From: Henriciella aquimarina
GTDB taxonomy: Bacteria; Pseudomonadota; Alphaproteobacteria; Caulobacterales; Hyphomonadaceae
NCBI RefSeq assembly: GCF_002088975.1
Contig: NZ_NCST01000062.1
Span: 62,001 to 126,000 of the forward strand
Direction of reading: 5' to 3'
Length of the DNA: 64,000 nucleotides
Below the pieces are notes generated by a model that was not told where the DNA came from, made no database searches, and was given only the letters and a program-made list of their open reading frames with translations. The position numbers and the translations under genes were made by a program. Below are positions 37,628-42,901 of the stretch, piece after piece. Each line of letters opens with the position of its first letter. Position 1 is the stretch's first letter.

Positions 37628-38723
37628 GAGCGAGACAGACAAACCGCTCGTCATCATCGGGGCAGGGGGCACCGGCGGACACATGTTTCCGGCGGCGGCC
37701 TTTGCCGACGAGATGCGCGCGCGCGGCTGGGCTGTCGGCCTGATGAGCGATGCGCGCGGCCTGCGCTATGCCGGGGACTTTCCCGCCGACTGGAAGGAAG
37801 AGGTCCGCGCCGCCAGCCCCAACATGCGCAAGCCCTGGACGTTGCCCGGCGCGGCACTGAAAATCTGGGGCGGCATCAATTCCGCCGCGCGCACCATGAA
37901 ACGGCTGCAGCCCGCGCTGGTGGCCGGCTTTGGCGGCTATCCGGCCTTTCCGGCGCTCAGTGCCGCGACGCGCCGCAAGGTGCCGATCCTGATCCATGAA
38001 CAGAACGCCGTGCTCGGCCGGGTGAACCGGCGCTTTGCGGGCAAGGCGGCCATCGTCGCCTCCGGCTTCGAGCGGCTCGACCGTCTGCCGGGCGGGGCGG
38101 TACACCATGCCGTCGGCAATCCGGTGCGGTCTGCCGTCGCCGCCAAGCGCGAGGTGCCCTATCCGCCGACCGATGGCGAGCTGACCATCTTCATCACCGG
38201 CGGCAGCCAGGGCGCGAAGATCCTCGGCGACATCCTGCCGCTGGCGATTGCGAACCACACGCCCCCGACGCTGCGCGCGCGGCTGAAAGTCGTCCAGCAG
38301 GTGCGCGAGGAGCAGATGGATCAGGTGCGCGCGGTCTATGACAAGGTCCAGCTCCGCCACGAGCTGAAACCCTTCTTCTCCGACATGCCCGACCGGCTGG
38401 CCGCCGCCCATCTCATCATTGCGCGCTCGGGTGCCGGCACCGTCAGCGAGATAGCCGCGGTGGGCCGGCCCTCCATCCTCATCCCGCTCAAGATCGCGAT
38501 GGACAATCACCAGGAAGCCAATGCCGAGGCGCTGGTCGAGGCGGGTGCCGCCGACATGATTGTCGAGGACAATCTCTATCCGAACCTGCTGGGGGAGCTG
38601 ATCGCCGCGCGTCTGGGCGATGCCGGCGAGTTGAAGAACCGGGCCGCGCTCGCACGGGTGACGGGCACGGTGACAGCGGCGAGCGACCTGGCCGATCTCG
38701 CCGAACAGGTGGCGAAACGCTAG
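37620..38723 (+). CDS. murG: UDP-GlcNAc:lipid I N-acetylglucosaminyltransferase MurG
   Basis: A 367-residue GT-B glycosyltransferase converting lipid I to lipid II. Motifs are [37 protein letters not shown] and [13 protein letters not shown], ending with [11 protein letters not shown]. The ATG with GGAG six bases before was chosen over a GTG two codons upstream. Its stop overlaps that of the convergent DUF3291 gene (CTAG), ending the first transcriptional block of the cluster. Confidence 0.97.
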
Positions 38724-39205
38724 GCCGCCGAGCGGCAGGCATGACTGATGTGCATCTCGGCGTCCTTCAGCCAGTCCCAGCCGAACGCCTCTTCGCTGTC
38801 GCCATGCTGGCGGCGCATCTCCAGCCGTGCCAGCGCGTCCTCCAGCGTCGGCTGATGGCCTTCGGGCACCCACCACATGACGAAATGCATCTCGCCCAGC
38901 ACCTCGAACCAGTCGGCCCGGCGCTCATAGAAACGTTTGTGGATGGTGCCCCAGACGAAGCGTTCGAGGCTTTTGACGTCCTTCCAGACGGTGAGGTTGG
39001 AGACGAGCTGCGGGTCGCCGCCGATCTTGGTTTCGGTGTTGCCGGTGCCCGGCTCGCCCGAGCCCTCCATCATCCAGACAAAGCCCGGCATGCGTTTGCC
39101 CAGCCCGTTGATGAGGTCGAGATTGTCCATGAAGTCCTTGACCCGCGGGTCACCCGGCGGAGCGATGAGGCGGCCGACATTCAGCTCGGCAAGGTGCATG
39201 GTCAT
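38720..39205 (-). CDS. DUF3291-type protein inserted in the dcw cluster
   Basis: A 161-residue soluble protein matching the DUF3291 form: [20 protein letters not shown], a [14 protein letters not shown] segment, [19 protein letters not shown] and [13 protein letters not shown], ending in a [15 protein letters not shown] strand-loop. These are ferredoxin-like, ABM/monooxygenase-type folds; no activity is known. It lies on the opposite strand between murG and murC, with base composition like its neighbours, so it is not a recent foreign insertion. Confidence 0.8.
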
Positions 39206-39370
39206 GGGCGGGCCTTTCAGTGCGTTTCCTCAGGGTAACCTTATGGAAGCGCGGCCCATTGCAAGTGAAAGACGCGTTATATGCCCTGAAAATGCCCTCC
39301 TGCCGCCATGCTCAGCATCCGGTCCTTGCCTAGGCCGGGCAGTGCACGCTATCGCGAGGAGATCTCACCC

Positions 39371-40828
39371 ATGCCTTTTGAAGACACCGCGCACATGACC
39401 CTGAAACCTTCTCCCTTCGATATCGGCCCGGCCCACCTTGTCGGGATCGGTGGTATCGGCATGTCCGGCATCGCCGAGATCATGATGAATCTCGGCTACA
39501 AGGTGCAGGGCTCCGACGTGAAGGAGAGCGCCAATGTCGAGCGCTTGCGCGAGAAGGGCGCCACTGTCCATATCGGTCACAAGCCCGAGAATGTCGCCGG
39601 TGCCGGGGCGGTGATCATTTCGTCTGCCATCAAAGGCGACAATGTCGAGGTGCAGGCCGCGCGCGCCCGGGGCATTCCGGTGGTGCGTCGCGCCGACATG
39701 CTGGCCGAGATCATCCGCATGAAGTGGACGGTCGCCTGCGCGGGCACCCATGGCAAGACGACCACGACCACCATGGTCGCCGCGCTGCTTGACGGCGCCG
39801 GCATCGACCCCACCGTCATCAATGGCGGGATCATCAACGCCTATGGCTCCAACGCCAAGGCCGGCACGGGCGACTGGATCGTGCTGGAAGCCGATGAAAG
39901 CGACGGCACCTTCATCAAGCTGCGCCCGACCATTGCCATCGTCACCAATATGGACCCCGAACACATGGAGCATTACGGCTCCATGGAGGCGCTGAGGAAG
40001 GCGTTCGACACCTATGTCGGCAATATTCCCTTCTATGGTTTCGGCGTGCTCTGCACCGACCATCCGGAAGTTTCCGCCATGGTCAGCCGCGTCTCCGACC
40101 GGCGCATCATCACTTACGGCTTCAACCGCCAGTCCGATGTGCGCGCGGTGAACCTGCAGTCCGATCCGGACGGGGTGACCTTCGACGTCATGGTCCGTGG
40201 CCGGCAGGGCCGCGAGGACCGGACGATTACCGGTGTGCGCCTGCCCATGGCGGGCGATCACAATGTCGCCAATGCGCTGGCCGCGATCACCGTCGCCCTC
40301 GAACTCGGCGCCACCGTCGAGCAGATCAAGCACAGCTTCGAGACCTTTGGCGGGGTGAAGCGCCGCTTTACCCCGGCTGGCGAATGGGTGCCCGAAGGCG
40401 CCGGGCCGGATGGCCGCGTGCGCGTTATCGATGACTATGGCCACCACCCGGTCGAGATTTCCGCCGTGCTGAAAGCCGCGCGTGCCATGCAGGGCCAGAA
40501 CCGCGTCATCGCGGTCGCCCAGCCGCACCGCTATTCGCGCCTCCACGACCTGTTCGAGGACTTCTCGCAATGCTTCCGCGAGGCCGACATCGCCCTCATC
40601 GCGCCGGTCTATGCCGCTGGCGAAGACCCGATCGAAGGCGCGACGCACACCGAACTCGTCGACAGCATCACCGCGCATGGCCACAAGGATGCGCGCACGC
40701 TCTCATCGCTGGATGAGCTGCCGGATGTCATCCGCGAGATCGTGCAGCCGGGCGACCTGATCGTCTGCCTCGGCGCGGGCGACATCACCGCCCATGCCAA
40801 TGCGCTCGCCGGGAAATTCGGGGCGTGA
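39371..40828 (+). CDS. murC: UDP-MurNAc:L-alanine ligase MurC
   Basis: A 485-residue Mur ligase. N-terminal [20 protein letters not shown] site [16 protein letters not shown]-type [13 protein letters not shown] and YGHHPVEI are all typical. It adds the first stem residue. The start MPFEDTAHM was chosen because GAGGAGA lies 9-15 bases before it; an ATG eight codons later is possible. Its promoter must lie in the gap after the opposite-strand DUF3291 gene. Confidence 0.96.
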
Positions 40829-40832
40829 GGCC

Positions 40833-40942
40833 CATGCTTCGACAAGCTCAGCATGAGGTCTTTCCAAGAGACGGATGGCAGGCAAGCGCGTCTCTCATCC
40901 TGAATCTCCCGACCTTCATCCTGAACCTGTCGAAGGATGAGG
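40833..40942. repeat. Dispersed repeat copies between murC and murB
   Basis: One copy at 40833-40857 (core CTTCGACAAGCTCAGCATG, itself with a CATGCT/AGCATG dyad) is matched by an inverted copy at 40918-40942 (reverse: CTTCGACAGGTTCAGGATG). A partial third copy CTCATCCTGAATC lies at about 40894. Repeats of this CTTCGACA-GCTCAG-ATGA type are scattered between genes in many alphaproteobacterial genomes. They sit in a non-coding gap of 249 bases. Confidence 0.75.
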
Positions 40943-40967
40943 CTTGCGGAAGGTTTCAGTCCCGCTT

Positions 40968-41053
40968 CACCACGGCTTGTCCGTGGTGCCCATCTCATGC
41001 CGGTGCAGCAAGACGCCCATGCATGAGATGGATCCCACGGACAAGCCGTGGGA
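40968..41053. repeat. Long inverted repeat just upstream of murB
   Basis: Two 33-base arms (40968-41000 and 41021-41053) match at 28 of 33 positions around a 20-base loop. Each arm also holds its own palindrome CCACGG-CTTGT-CCGTGG. The second arm ends 10 bases before the murB ribosome site (GGAAAGGG). It could fold as a strong RNA hairpin in the murC-murB transcript. Composition resembles REP/BIME-type elements. Confidence 0.85.
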
Positions 41054-41077
41054 CAGCCAATCCGGAAAGGGTCTGCC

Positions 41078-42028
41078 ATGTGGCGTGATAATCTCCCACC
41101 CGTGCGTGGCAAGCTGCTACGCGACCAGGCGCTCGCGCCCTATACGTGGTTCCGGGTCGGCGGGCCGGCCGATGTGCTCTTCCTGCCGAAGGATGAGGAC
41201 GACCTGGCCGACTTCCTGAAGGCGTTGCCCGAAGAGGTGCCGGTCCATTTCATGGGCGTGGCCTCGAACTCGATCATCCGTGATGGCGGGATCGAGGGCG
41301 TCACCATCCGGCTGATGGGCGGATACTGGGGCAAGGTCGAGCCGGCCGGGCCGCATTCGCTCTTTGCCCGCGCCGGGGCGCTCGACCTGGCGGTTGCGAA
41401 GACCGCCGCGAAGGAAGGCATTGCCGGGCTCTCCTTCTTCTCCGGCATTCCGGGCTCGGTGGGCGGTGCGGTGCGCACCAATGCCGGCTGTTATGGCCGC
41501 GAGCTGAAGGACGTCGCCAACCAGATCGAGGGCATCACCCGGTCCGGCGAGAAAGTGCGTTTCGAAGCCGAGATCGCGCAATATGGCGATCCGAAGATCG
41601 ACTTCTCCTACCGCCATTCCAATTTCCCGGACGACATCATCGTCACCGGCATCCTGCTGACAGGCTCGGGCGATGGCGATCCGGCCGCACTGGACCAGGA
41701 GATCGCCGAGCATCAGCTGCGCCGCGCCGAAACCCAGCCGATCCGCGAAAAGACCGGAGGCTCCACTTTCGCCAATCCCGATCCGCCCGGCACGCCCAAC
41801 CAGCGCTCAAGCTGGAAGCTGGTCGATGCGGCCGGCTGCCGGGGCCTGAAAGTGGGCGGCGCGCAGGTCAGCGAGAAGCACTGCAACTTCCTGATCAATA
41901 CCGGCGAGGCGAGCGCCGCCGATATCGAGGCGTTGGGGGAGCTCGTGCGCGCCCGCGTCCTGGATGTCACCGGCGTCGATTTGCGCTGGGAGATCCGCCG
42001 CATCGGGCGACTGAAAGCGCCCGAATAG
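41078..42028 (+). CDS. murB: UDP-N-acetylenolpyruvoylglucosamine reductase MurB
   Basis: A 316-residue flavoenzyme producing UDP-MurNAc. FAD motifs: [14 protein letters not shown], then [16 protein letters not shown] and [22 protein letters not shown]; the C-terminal [14 protein letters not shown] holds the catalytic Ser, with the late Glu in [11 protein letters not shown]. The short form (type IIb-like) fits alphaproteobacteria. The start ATG follows GGAAAGGG; an in-frame GTG ten codons before lies inside the repeat and was rejected. Confidence 0.96.
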
Positions 42029-42037
42029 GCGCCCGGT

Positions 42038-42901
42038 TCAGCGCGACTTCTCCGGCTCCTGCACTTCGGCATGGACCTGTCCCCAGGCCAGCATGGCGAA
42101 GAGGCCGGCCCCGCCGATAATGTTGCCCATCAGGGTCGGCAGCAGATTGACCCCGATCAGTTTCAGAAAGCTCTGATCGCCTTCGAACCCGACCAGGAAC
42201 AGCTCCGTCGCGCCCACCACAACGTGGGCGAAATCGCCAAGCGCGATGAGGTAGGTGAAGAAGACGATCACCCAGAACTCATTGCCTTCCGAACCGGGCC
42301 GGATCCAGACCAGCGCGGCCACGAGGAAGCCCGCCGGCATGGCTTTCAGGAAGGTCTCCCAGGCCGTCCAGCCGGCGACATGGTGGCCGATTTCGACAGC
42401 GGCCTGCTTGACCTCGGGCTGCAGGGCGCCGCCATAAACGAAGAAGGCAGCCGCCACCGCCGTGCCGATCATATTGGCAAGGAAGACCGTGCTCCACAGC
42501 CGCGCCGTGCCGAGAATGGTGCGCTTGCACGGGTCTGCCAGTGTTGGCAGGACAACGGTCAGCGTGTTCTCGGTAAACAGCTGCATGCGCCCGAGCATCA
42601 CGATGAGGAAGCCGGAGGCATACCCGAAATTCTCGATCAGGGGGCGCCACTCCCGGTCCGGCAGGCCGGTGCGCAGCATGGCTTCCATGGCGAGCGATAT
42701 CGAGATGCTGATGCCCGCGGCGATGCCCGACCACCAGATGGAGGATTGCGGGCGCGAGAGCTCCGAGCGGCCCTCCTGGCGGATAACCTCATAGACCATC
42801 CGGGATTTCAGCTTGGTCAGCCGCGCGGCTTCAAAGCGTTCCTCCTCGGTAATCTGGTCTTCTTCTGCGTGTTCCGGGGATTTCTGGACCGTACCTGACA
42901 T
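42038..42901 (-). CDS. Formate/nitrite transporter family protein (YfdC-like)
   Basis: A 287-residue membrane protein of the FNT/aquaporin-like fold with about six helices. N-terminal cytosolic acidic part, then [36 protein letters not shown] and [17 protein letters not shown]. It resembles the long YfdC branch of FNT channels, whose substrate is unsettled. It lies opposite to murB and ddl, breaking the cluster a second time. Composition is like its neighbours. Confidence 0.88.

Follow-up and report, generated by a model that had tools for sequence, protein, structure and literature searches.

Inverted hairpin repeats between murC and murB of Henriciella aquimarina and GIY-YIG nucleases as their candidate movers

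Introduction

What are the repeats that separate murC from murB in Henriciella aquimarina, and what could have put them there? We analysed a 64,000-nucleotide stretch of this genome (the window), within which positions are counted from the first letter; genomes, contigs and loci are cited, where needed, by our own G, C and L numbers. The gap between the two genes had been described as a single block of dispersed repeats with a long hairpin, which might act in the murC-murB mRNA or be a target of a REP-associated transposase (RAYT). A published survey of short hairpin repeats, in its passages on CGTC REPs, treats these as apparently lacking a dedicated transposase and leaves open how they spread (Di Nocera, De Gregorio and Rocco 2013, PMC3733652).

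Results

Two dimers in the murC-murB gap

In the ORF list, murC occupies positions 39308-40828 on the plus strand, with its TGA stop codon at 40826-40828, and tblastn places it beside murB in near relatives. The most likely start of murB (41078-42028, plus strand) is the ATG at 41078, as alignments with near relatives begin at residue 2 or 3; a longer murB frame from a GTG at 41048 is also present in the ORF list. Both gene names were taken from the original prediction and agree with the proteins. A probable ribosome site for murB, GGAAAGG, was located at 41064-41070 on the plus strand, with a predicted duplex of -7.3 kcal/mol when computed against an anti-SD string.

The gap is made up of two REP dimers, A and B, each consisting of two short hairpins in inverted orientation. 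Element A (40833-40939, no strand assigned) is an inverted pair of CTTCGACA-type hairpins, identified from the sequence and a repeat search and returned by the inverted-repeat search as pair I2 (29 nt, 79%). Its first hairpin, CATGCT-TCGACAAGCTC-AGCATG, lies at 40833-40855 on the plus strand, and GCTTCGACAAGCTCAGCATGA occurs again in G001, G003 and G004. The second, CATCCT-GAACCTGTCGA-AGGATG, was found in the same two ways at 40917-40939 on the minus strand. These hairpins are the inverted copies of a dispersed repeat that had been described in the gap.

Element B, a dimer akin to CGTC REPs, spans 40958-41063 including model flanks (no strand assigned) and was matched by the model R1 at E 3.1e-23 (C58:102958-103063), this copy being one of the 11 from which R1 was built. 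Its first hairpin, CACCACGG-CTTGT-CCGTGGTG with the tail CCCA, lies at 40968-40988 on the plus strand, and its second, TCCCACGG-ACAAG-CCGTGGGA with the minus-strand tail TCCA, at 41033-41053 on the minus strand. The spacer between them (40989-41032) has complementary ends, CCCATCTCATGC and GCATGAGATGGA, as seen in the sequence and in the inverted-repeat search. The long inverted repeat with nested palindromes described earlier was recovered here with arms of 31 nt (40970-41000 and 41021-41051) that are 90% complementary, and 12 bases separate it from GGAAAGG at 41064. The description as one repeat block therefore holds in that both repeat types lie in the gap, but they form two separate dimers. 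B also ends slightly beyond 41053, where the block had been closed: with its outer tag it extends to ~41059, and the R1 model, which includes ~12 flanking bases, reaches 41063.

Within the window, repeats of the A and B types were found in this gap alone. The gap folds at -124.7 kcal/mol, compared with -87.6 ± 5.4 kcal/mol for 200 dinucleotide shuffles, none of which equalled it (z -6.9). In the surrounding region, long minus-strand ORFs were seen at 38720-39205 (between murG and murC) and at 42038-42901 (after murB and before the following gene on the plus strand), with which the dcw cluster may be broken by genes on the opposite strand.

Local hairpins as the conserved unit of B

Copies of B were aligned in one orientation each (76 copies from 74 loci), with 150 of the 154 model matches included. 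The left hairpin was paired in 593/605 cells and the right in 594/606, against shuffle means of 0.81 and 0.82, and both showed many two-sided changes; the alignment was fitted to a local-hairpin model and leans to local hairpins, and the raw sequences show the same changes. The central stem paired in 476/530 cells, with covariation not above that of shuffles. These patterns indicate that the conserved unit of B is a short local hairpin, present twice. One long RNA hairpin, as originally proposed, does not appear to be the conserved feature, because its outer (484/604) and inner (457/603) long-range pairings fall slightly under their shuffle means, whereas local pairing reaches 98%.

The stems are 8 bp long, the left loop reads CTTGA in 34 and CTTGT in 17 of the 76 copies, and a CCA tail is present in 73/76 left and 72/76 right units. 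Exact CGTC was found at 6 of 150 ends and CGNN at 109; the tag is mostly CGCC, CGAY or CGCT, and the ends of the window copy likewise deviate from CGTC. The outermost modelled pair was C-G in 56/75 copies and T-A in 15/75, and loss of the first stem pair is frequent. Nearly all listed R1 matches cover both units of B, and single units would be missed because R1 was built from dimers; the centre loop of the model measures 24-28 nt in 66/76 copies. Other hairpins of the CTTCGACA, CTTCGCT or CCCCGGCGAAGG kind are nested in an apical loop in six of the 76 copies (L205, L232, L223, L139, L140 and L141), two of these perhaps representing a single locus; the count does not measure target choice because R1 may miss copies with broken stems.

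Distribution of the repeats

R1 is a covariance model of the whole B dimer, trained on 11 copies from the H. aquimarina genome. In this genome it found at least 14 distinct B places (28 matches over both strands), a lower bound, with 150 of 3050 first-look candidates scored. Two of the places, on C22 and C116, are close to the ends of their contigs and may represent the same locus; these copies (C22:140443-140564 and C116:384-505) have similar neighbours and slightly differing sequences, which fits either a repeat or an assembly overlap. By a simple ORF call, eight of the 14 copies lie between convergent genes, six between co-directional genes and none between divergent genes.

B was detected in at least 19 of 29 genomes of the genus and, with the H. 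aquimarina genome included, in at least 28 of 105 of the family and at least 37 of 385 of the class, the family and class counts being lower bounds because filters were stricter and few candidates were scored per genome. The nearest relative, G010, gave no B match at the R1 cut-off used. The core CCACGGACAAGCCGTGG had 22 matches at up to two mismatches, compared with three for the reversed control. The CTTCGACA repeat is present in four copies in H. aquimarina and in 35, 38 and 38 copies in G001, G003 and G017; it was found in at least 20 of the 29 genus genomes, where the reversed pattern was without any match, and among the matches listed it frequently forms inverted pairs ~45-115 bp apart. 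Both types found in the gap are thus dispersed in the genome, as the original prediction had anticipated, and this REP-like material is probably the trace of a mobile process.

Two arrangements of B-like dimers outside H. aquimarina were also seen. At L222 (G026), two closely similar dimers in the same orientation bracket a gene-sized stretch of ~570 bp. G087, from another genus, has 20 dimers (L241-L260) whose heads are mostly CGAY rather than CGCC, and no clade-B gene (see below) was found within 1 kb of any of them.

A derived insertion

The MurB protein of H. aquimarina is 87-89% identical to those of H. algicola, H. pelagia and H. mobilis. The distance from murC to murB is 0-1 nt in 11 out of 13 near relatives (MurB 86-93% identical), and the remaining two, G011 and G003, have other DNA upstream of murB; the 13 leave out 15 other genus genomes (MurB ~68-75%) with different arrangements. 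Because the genes abut in 11 of the 13, we conclude from these comparisons that the gap is a derived insertion, with A and B placed at the junction of the murC stop and the murB start. It probably does no more than separate the two genes, giving murB a new start context and ribosome site. The case illustrates that such repeats can enter between abutting cell-wall genes with both reading frames staying open.

For the B copy at C78:39097, seven of the 13 relatives read have the sequences that match the two convergent flanking genes at a distance of 4-28 bp. The other six, which are sister species, hold a different hairpin repeat at this same junction (L305:730-1000; L369-L381), of the CCCCAACGAAAGTTGGGG kind with the tail CCCA, which makes it a shared insertion place. 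No clean target-site duplication was found at the sites examined. CCATG flanks the murC-murB gap on both sides, but the left CCATG is part of the first hairpin of A and is not claimed as a duplication; at C78:39097, the stop codons may carry an ATTA-like duplication in degenerate form.

GIY-YIG genes beside the repeats

A 100-aa ORF adjoins one B copy of H. aquimarina, and a DNA search with the genome's own two-B region as query found relatives of it beside B copies elsewhere. Proteins of two clades, A and B, were recognised. The clade-B protein of H. aquimarina is a GIY-YIG protein (PF01541, E 9e-16), as is the clade-A protein of G001 (E 1.9e-13); the two proteins tested scored 58.4 and 51 bits against a cut-off of 22.6. 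When 44 proteins were aligned, the columns of the GIY-YIG core residues (Y, Y.G, R, H and E), which have a catalytic role, were conserved in at least 90% of the sequences. At least three gene copies are broken by a stop codon or a frameshift (L213, L383 and L421). NCBIfam contains no family for the clade-A or clade-B nuclease.

A GIY-YIG gene was found at 12 of the 74 B loci (search E 1e-3), in 11 cases no more than 60 bp from the dimer; since five of the 12 loci belong to a single orthologous site, they represent eight distinct sites. No clade-B gene was found within ~1-1.5 kb of the other 62 loci, among which are all 20 G087 loci. Neither 80 control murB loci (542 kb) nor the window contained a GIY-YIG match. 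A further 250-kb set gave no match to a clade-B query and was later found to contain a clade-A gene.

A tblastn search of plasmid records with a GIY-YIG protein returned 34 records, comprising 27 alphaproteobacterial ones, two from Neisseria gonorrhoeae and single records from Planktothrix, Photobacterium, Aeromonas, Spirosoma and Subdoligranulum; the Spirosoma protein as query returned 32 records, essentially the same set. Eighteen plasmid loci, including two Sphingobium and two Shinella loci at apparently identical sites, were inspected by eye. CGTC-type or GTCAT-tagged repeats lay on both sides within ~300 bp at 15 of these, among them the Planktothrix and Spirosoma loci with GTCAT-tagged but atypical hairpins. 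Repeats were one-sided at two loci (Rhizobium tumorigenes and Photobacterium) and absent at one (Subdoligranulum).

As a sequence-blind measure, we scored the best ungapped inverted repeat formed by the two 300-bp flanks of the gene. A score of at least 15 was reached at 19 of 29 GIY-YIG loci and at 0 of 316 control windows, which were fixed places in murB loci, mostly coding and not matched intergenic regions. The 19 comprise 13/18 plasmid loci, 3/4 clade-A plasmid loci, 2/6 genus loci retrieved through DNA similarity, and the locus L408, chosen for its repeats. A strict hairpin-plus-CCA rule was passed by 12/17 plasmid and 5/7 genus clade-B loci compared with 11/316 controls; these clade-B loci were not chosen by the repeat model, and the DNA query that yielded the seven genus loci contained a B dimer as well as the gene. 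Seven of the 24 clade-B loci failed the rule, five of which are plasmid loci where different tails or loops were seen by eye. At L399, L405, L406 and L421, no clear pair of cognate repeats was seen. The repeat beside the GIY-YIG gene of Sinorhizobium meliloti Ak57 had no copy in 200 kb of pSymB of strain 1021.

Nuclease clade and repeat class

In G001, the clade-A gene sits between two A-type repeats, and its relatives in Methylobacterium and Sphingomonas plasmids and in H. aquimarina mostly occur with CTTCGA...CTCAG repeats. With clades assigned by reading the 44-protein alignment rather than from a tree, this motif was present at 5/6 clade-A loci versus 1/37 clade-B loci, and a CGTC-like hairpin at 0/6 versus 28/37; 12 of the 37 clade-B loci had been selected by the B repeat, and L270 and two Henriciella-group clade-A loci were reached through A-type repeat searches. 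Among the clade-A loci found by protein alone, 3/4 had the motif, compared with 4/316 controls. At L270:2476-2751 (G004), a further GIY-YIG gene lies amid CGTCATCCCGG...CCGGGACCCA repeats of a third kind.

The H. aquimarina genome has one nuclease per clade, which matches the two repeats of the gap: a clade-B gene at C34:34895-35197, 22 bp from a B dimer, and a clade-A gene at C29:10804-11088, directly after an A-like repeat. The C34 gene and its dimer are absent from the corresponding site in G023, G006, G016, G004 and G026, the five relatives alignable on both sides, whose interval at this place is shorter by ~590 bp or more. In Azospirillum lipoferum, a GIY-YIG gene with repeats lies between sufB and sufC. 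The absence at C34 and the placement in Azospirillum suggest that gene and repeats move as a unit.

Discussion

We propose, with a probability of roughly 0.6, that each repeat class has its own GIY-YIG nuclease that spreads it, and that the murC-murB gap holds two inserted, dependent dimers. A clade-A or clade-B gene would tend to be bracketed by repeats of its own class. The nuclease would recognise its cognate hairpin, as a cruciform or a single strand, and cut it, with copies then being inserted elsewhere; we infer this recognition, cutting and mobilisation by analogy with RAYTs and GTAG REPs. The autonomous form would consist of the gene together with its repeats, and the dependent, non-autonomous form of dimers like A and B. 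The genomic patterns suggest, without proving, that GIY-YIG nucleases are the missing engine of such hairpin repeats. For the wider proposal, that standalone GIY-YIG nucleases of at least two clades form a second REP system, being dedicated movers of CGTC REPs (including dRS3) and of CTTCGA-type repeats with the gap dimers as dependent passengers, we would put the odds slightly above even. If true, a common dispersed repeat of alphaproteobacteria and Neisseria would gain a testable enzyme, and a nuclease family besides the RAYTs would join the spreaders of short hairpins.

The linkage could also arise if GIY-YIG genes were passengers or frequent neighbours, genes and REPs both gathering where insertion is harmless and the nuclease being inactive on the repeats. 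The 14 H. aquimarina copies of B are placed as harmless insertions would be, 62 of the 74 B loci lack a GIY-YIG gene, and the control windows are mostly coding rather than matched intergenic DNA. We nevertheless consider this explanation unlikely, as the repeats bracket the gene in inverted orientation and often closely, nuclease clade tracks repeat class across genera, and none of the 316 (mostly coding) control windows shows bracketing.

A role of the hairpins as RNA control of the murC-murB mRNA, protecting the murC 3' end or damping murB, would be in keeping with the very stable fold of the gap (z -6.9) and with its location between co-directional genes, where it is presumably transcribed; the survey, in its part on this point, makes a case for the transcription of many repeats of this sort (PMC3733652). 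Recruitment to such a role appears distinctly unlikely, given that 11 of 13 near relatives lack the insertion. Predicted accessibility of the murB ribosome site is broadly alike with or without the upstream leader, shifting little and in no single direction, and gives no clear sign of hiding. An intrinsic terminator was rejected, as CAGCCAATCC follows hairpin 2 of B and no U-run is seen there by eye. Rfam gave no family match in the window at gathering scores.

Under another explanation the nuclease manages the repeats, resolving or trimming REP cruciforms, while the repeats themselves spread by replication slippage or another enzyme. Slx1 is structure-specific. A cluster of Slx1 proteins is contained in the GIY-YIG superfamily, according to the part of PMC1564403 concerned, and the hairpins nested in the apical loop in 6/76 B copies would be expected if loops are cut. 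However, gene and repeats occupy non-orthologous places and even the inside of an operon, as in sufB-GIY-sufC of Azospirillum, which looks like mobility of a unit and leaves mere management improbable.

A transposase gene of the RAYT kind was also considered. The H. aquimarina genome has one Y1_Tnp match (24.3 bits against a 23-bit cut-off), with an A-type copy ~500 bp from the gene, and this gene is bracketed by GTAGGGCGGG-type repeats. Repeats of the GTAGGGCGGGAT...ATCCCGCCCTAC type lie on both sides of it (L042, C81:38582-38923), and it is probably an ordinary RAYT with its own GTAG REPs. Y1 matches were found in 3/29 genus genomes, yet B in at least 19/29; among the 105 family genomes, B occurs in 28, Y1 in 21 and both in five, where ~5.6 are expected by chance. 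That this RAYT mobilises B in trans as a REPIN, the transposase target of the original prediction, is very improbable: no cognate RAYT bracketed by the same repeat was found, and on flanking repeats and genome distribution we rejected a RAYT as the cause of B's spread.

Comparison with known systems

Rhizobium RIME1 and ABC and Caulobacter CIR are intergenic palindromic elements of ~100 bp from alphaproteobacteria. B resembles them in size, palindromes and intergenic place, a likeness by description and not by sequence. R1, which models B and not a RIME sequence, had no match in four 50-kb pieces (200 kb) of S. meliloti 1021 pSymB.

In N. gonorrhoeae, a clade-B GIY-YIG gene is bracketed by GTCATTCCCGC...GCGGGAATC repeats, which we take to be dRS3 from the survey's equation. 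Neisserial dRS3 is CGTC-1 in the relevant section of the survey, where it is reported as large clusters (PMC3733652). Compared with B, dRS3 has a shorter stem and a different loop and is betaproteobacterial.

The proposed partner nuclease is like the small standalone GIY-YIG protein UPF0213 (PDB 1zg2), which it matches over residues 9-86 at E 2.8e-5. A published link of GIY-YIG to REPs, RAYTs or dRS3 was absent among the matches listed, preprints and most subscription journals lying outside the search. The string 'GIY' occurs 0 times in the text of PMC3733652. PMC9465073, in the part concerned, has GIY-YIG and a repeat in one gene list and draws no link, and the passages concerned of PMC12306157 and PMC1564403 contain no link between GIY-YIG and repeats. 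For the string CTTCGACA, the matches listed were unrelated papers.

B is like the CGTC REPs of the survey, as far as its passages on them describe these, in the 8-bp stem, 5-nt loop, CCA tail and inverted dimers with a short spacer, in its location between convergent or co-directional genes, and in being without RAYT association (PMC3733652). The survey's definition, in the part concerned, comprises a stem of 8-9 bp, a loop of 4-5 nt, a CCA tail and mostly inverted dimers with a spacer of 20-100 bp, all of which B has; the terminal unpaired CGTC and the complementary AT in the first two positions of the stem are mostly missing from B (PMC3733652). The arrangement of B would correspond to the survey's 'HH'. 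Since its tag is mostly CGCC, CGAY or CGCT, B is better called a diverged relative of CGTC REPs and, by the tag rule, a non-member. The terminal motif is itself altered to TGTC or CCTC in many repeats, according to the survey's passage on it (PMC3733652). R1 matches across the class often read CGTCATCC...GGATCCA...TGGATCC...GGATGACG, with GTCA before the stem in 19 of 25 printed left ends (by eye), and many of these relatives do carry the CGTC tag, unlike the 76 Hyphomonadaceae copies.

The proposed arrangement is like that of RAYTs and GTAG REPs, as described in the corresponding section of the survey, in that a nuclease gene is flanked by its own repeats and accompanied by seemingly dependent inverted dimers (PMC3733652). 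It differs in that GIY-YIG is not a tyrosine HUH nuclease and the repeat class is another, the local RAYT-like gene being found with other repeats. Whereas CGTC REPs are without a dedicated enzyme in the survey's account of them, a GIY-YIG partner is proposed for them here (PMC3733652).
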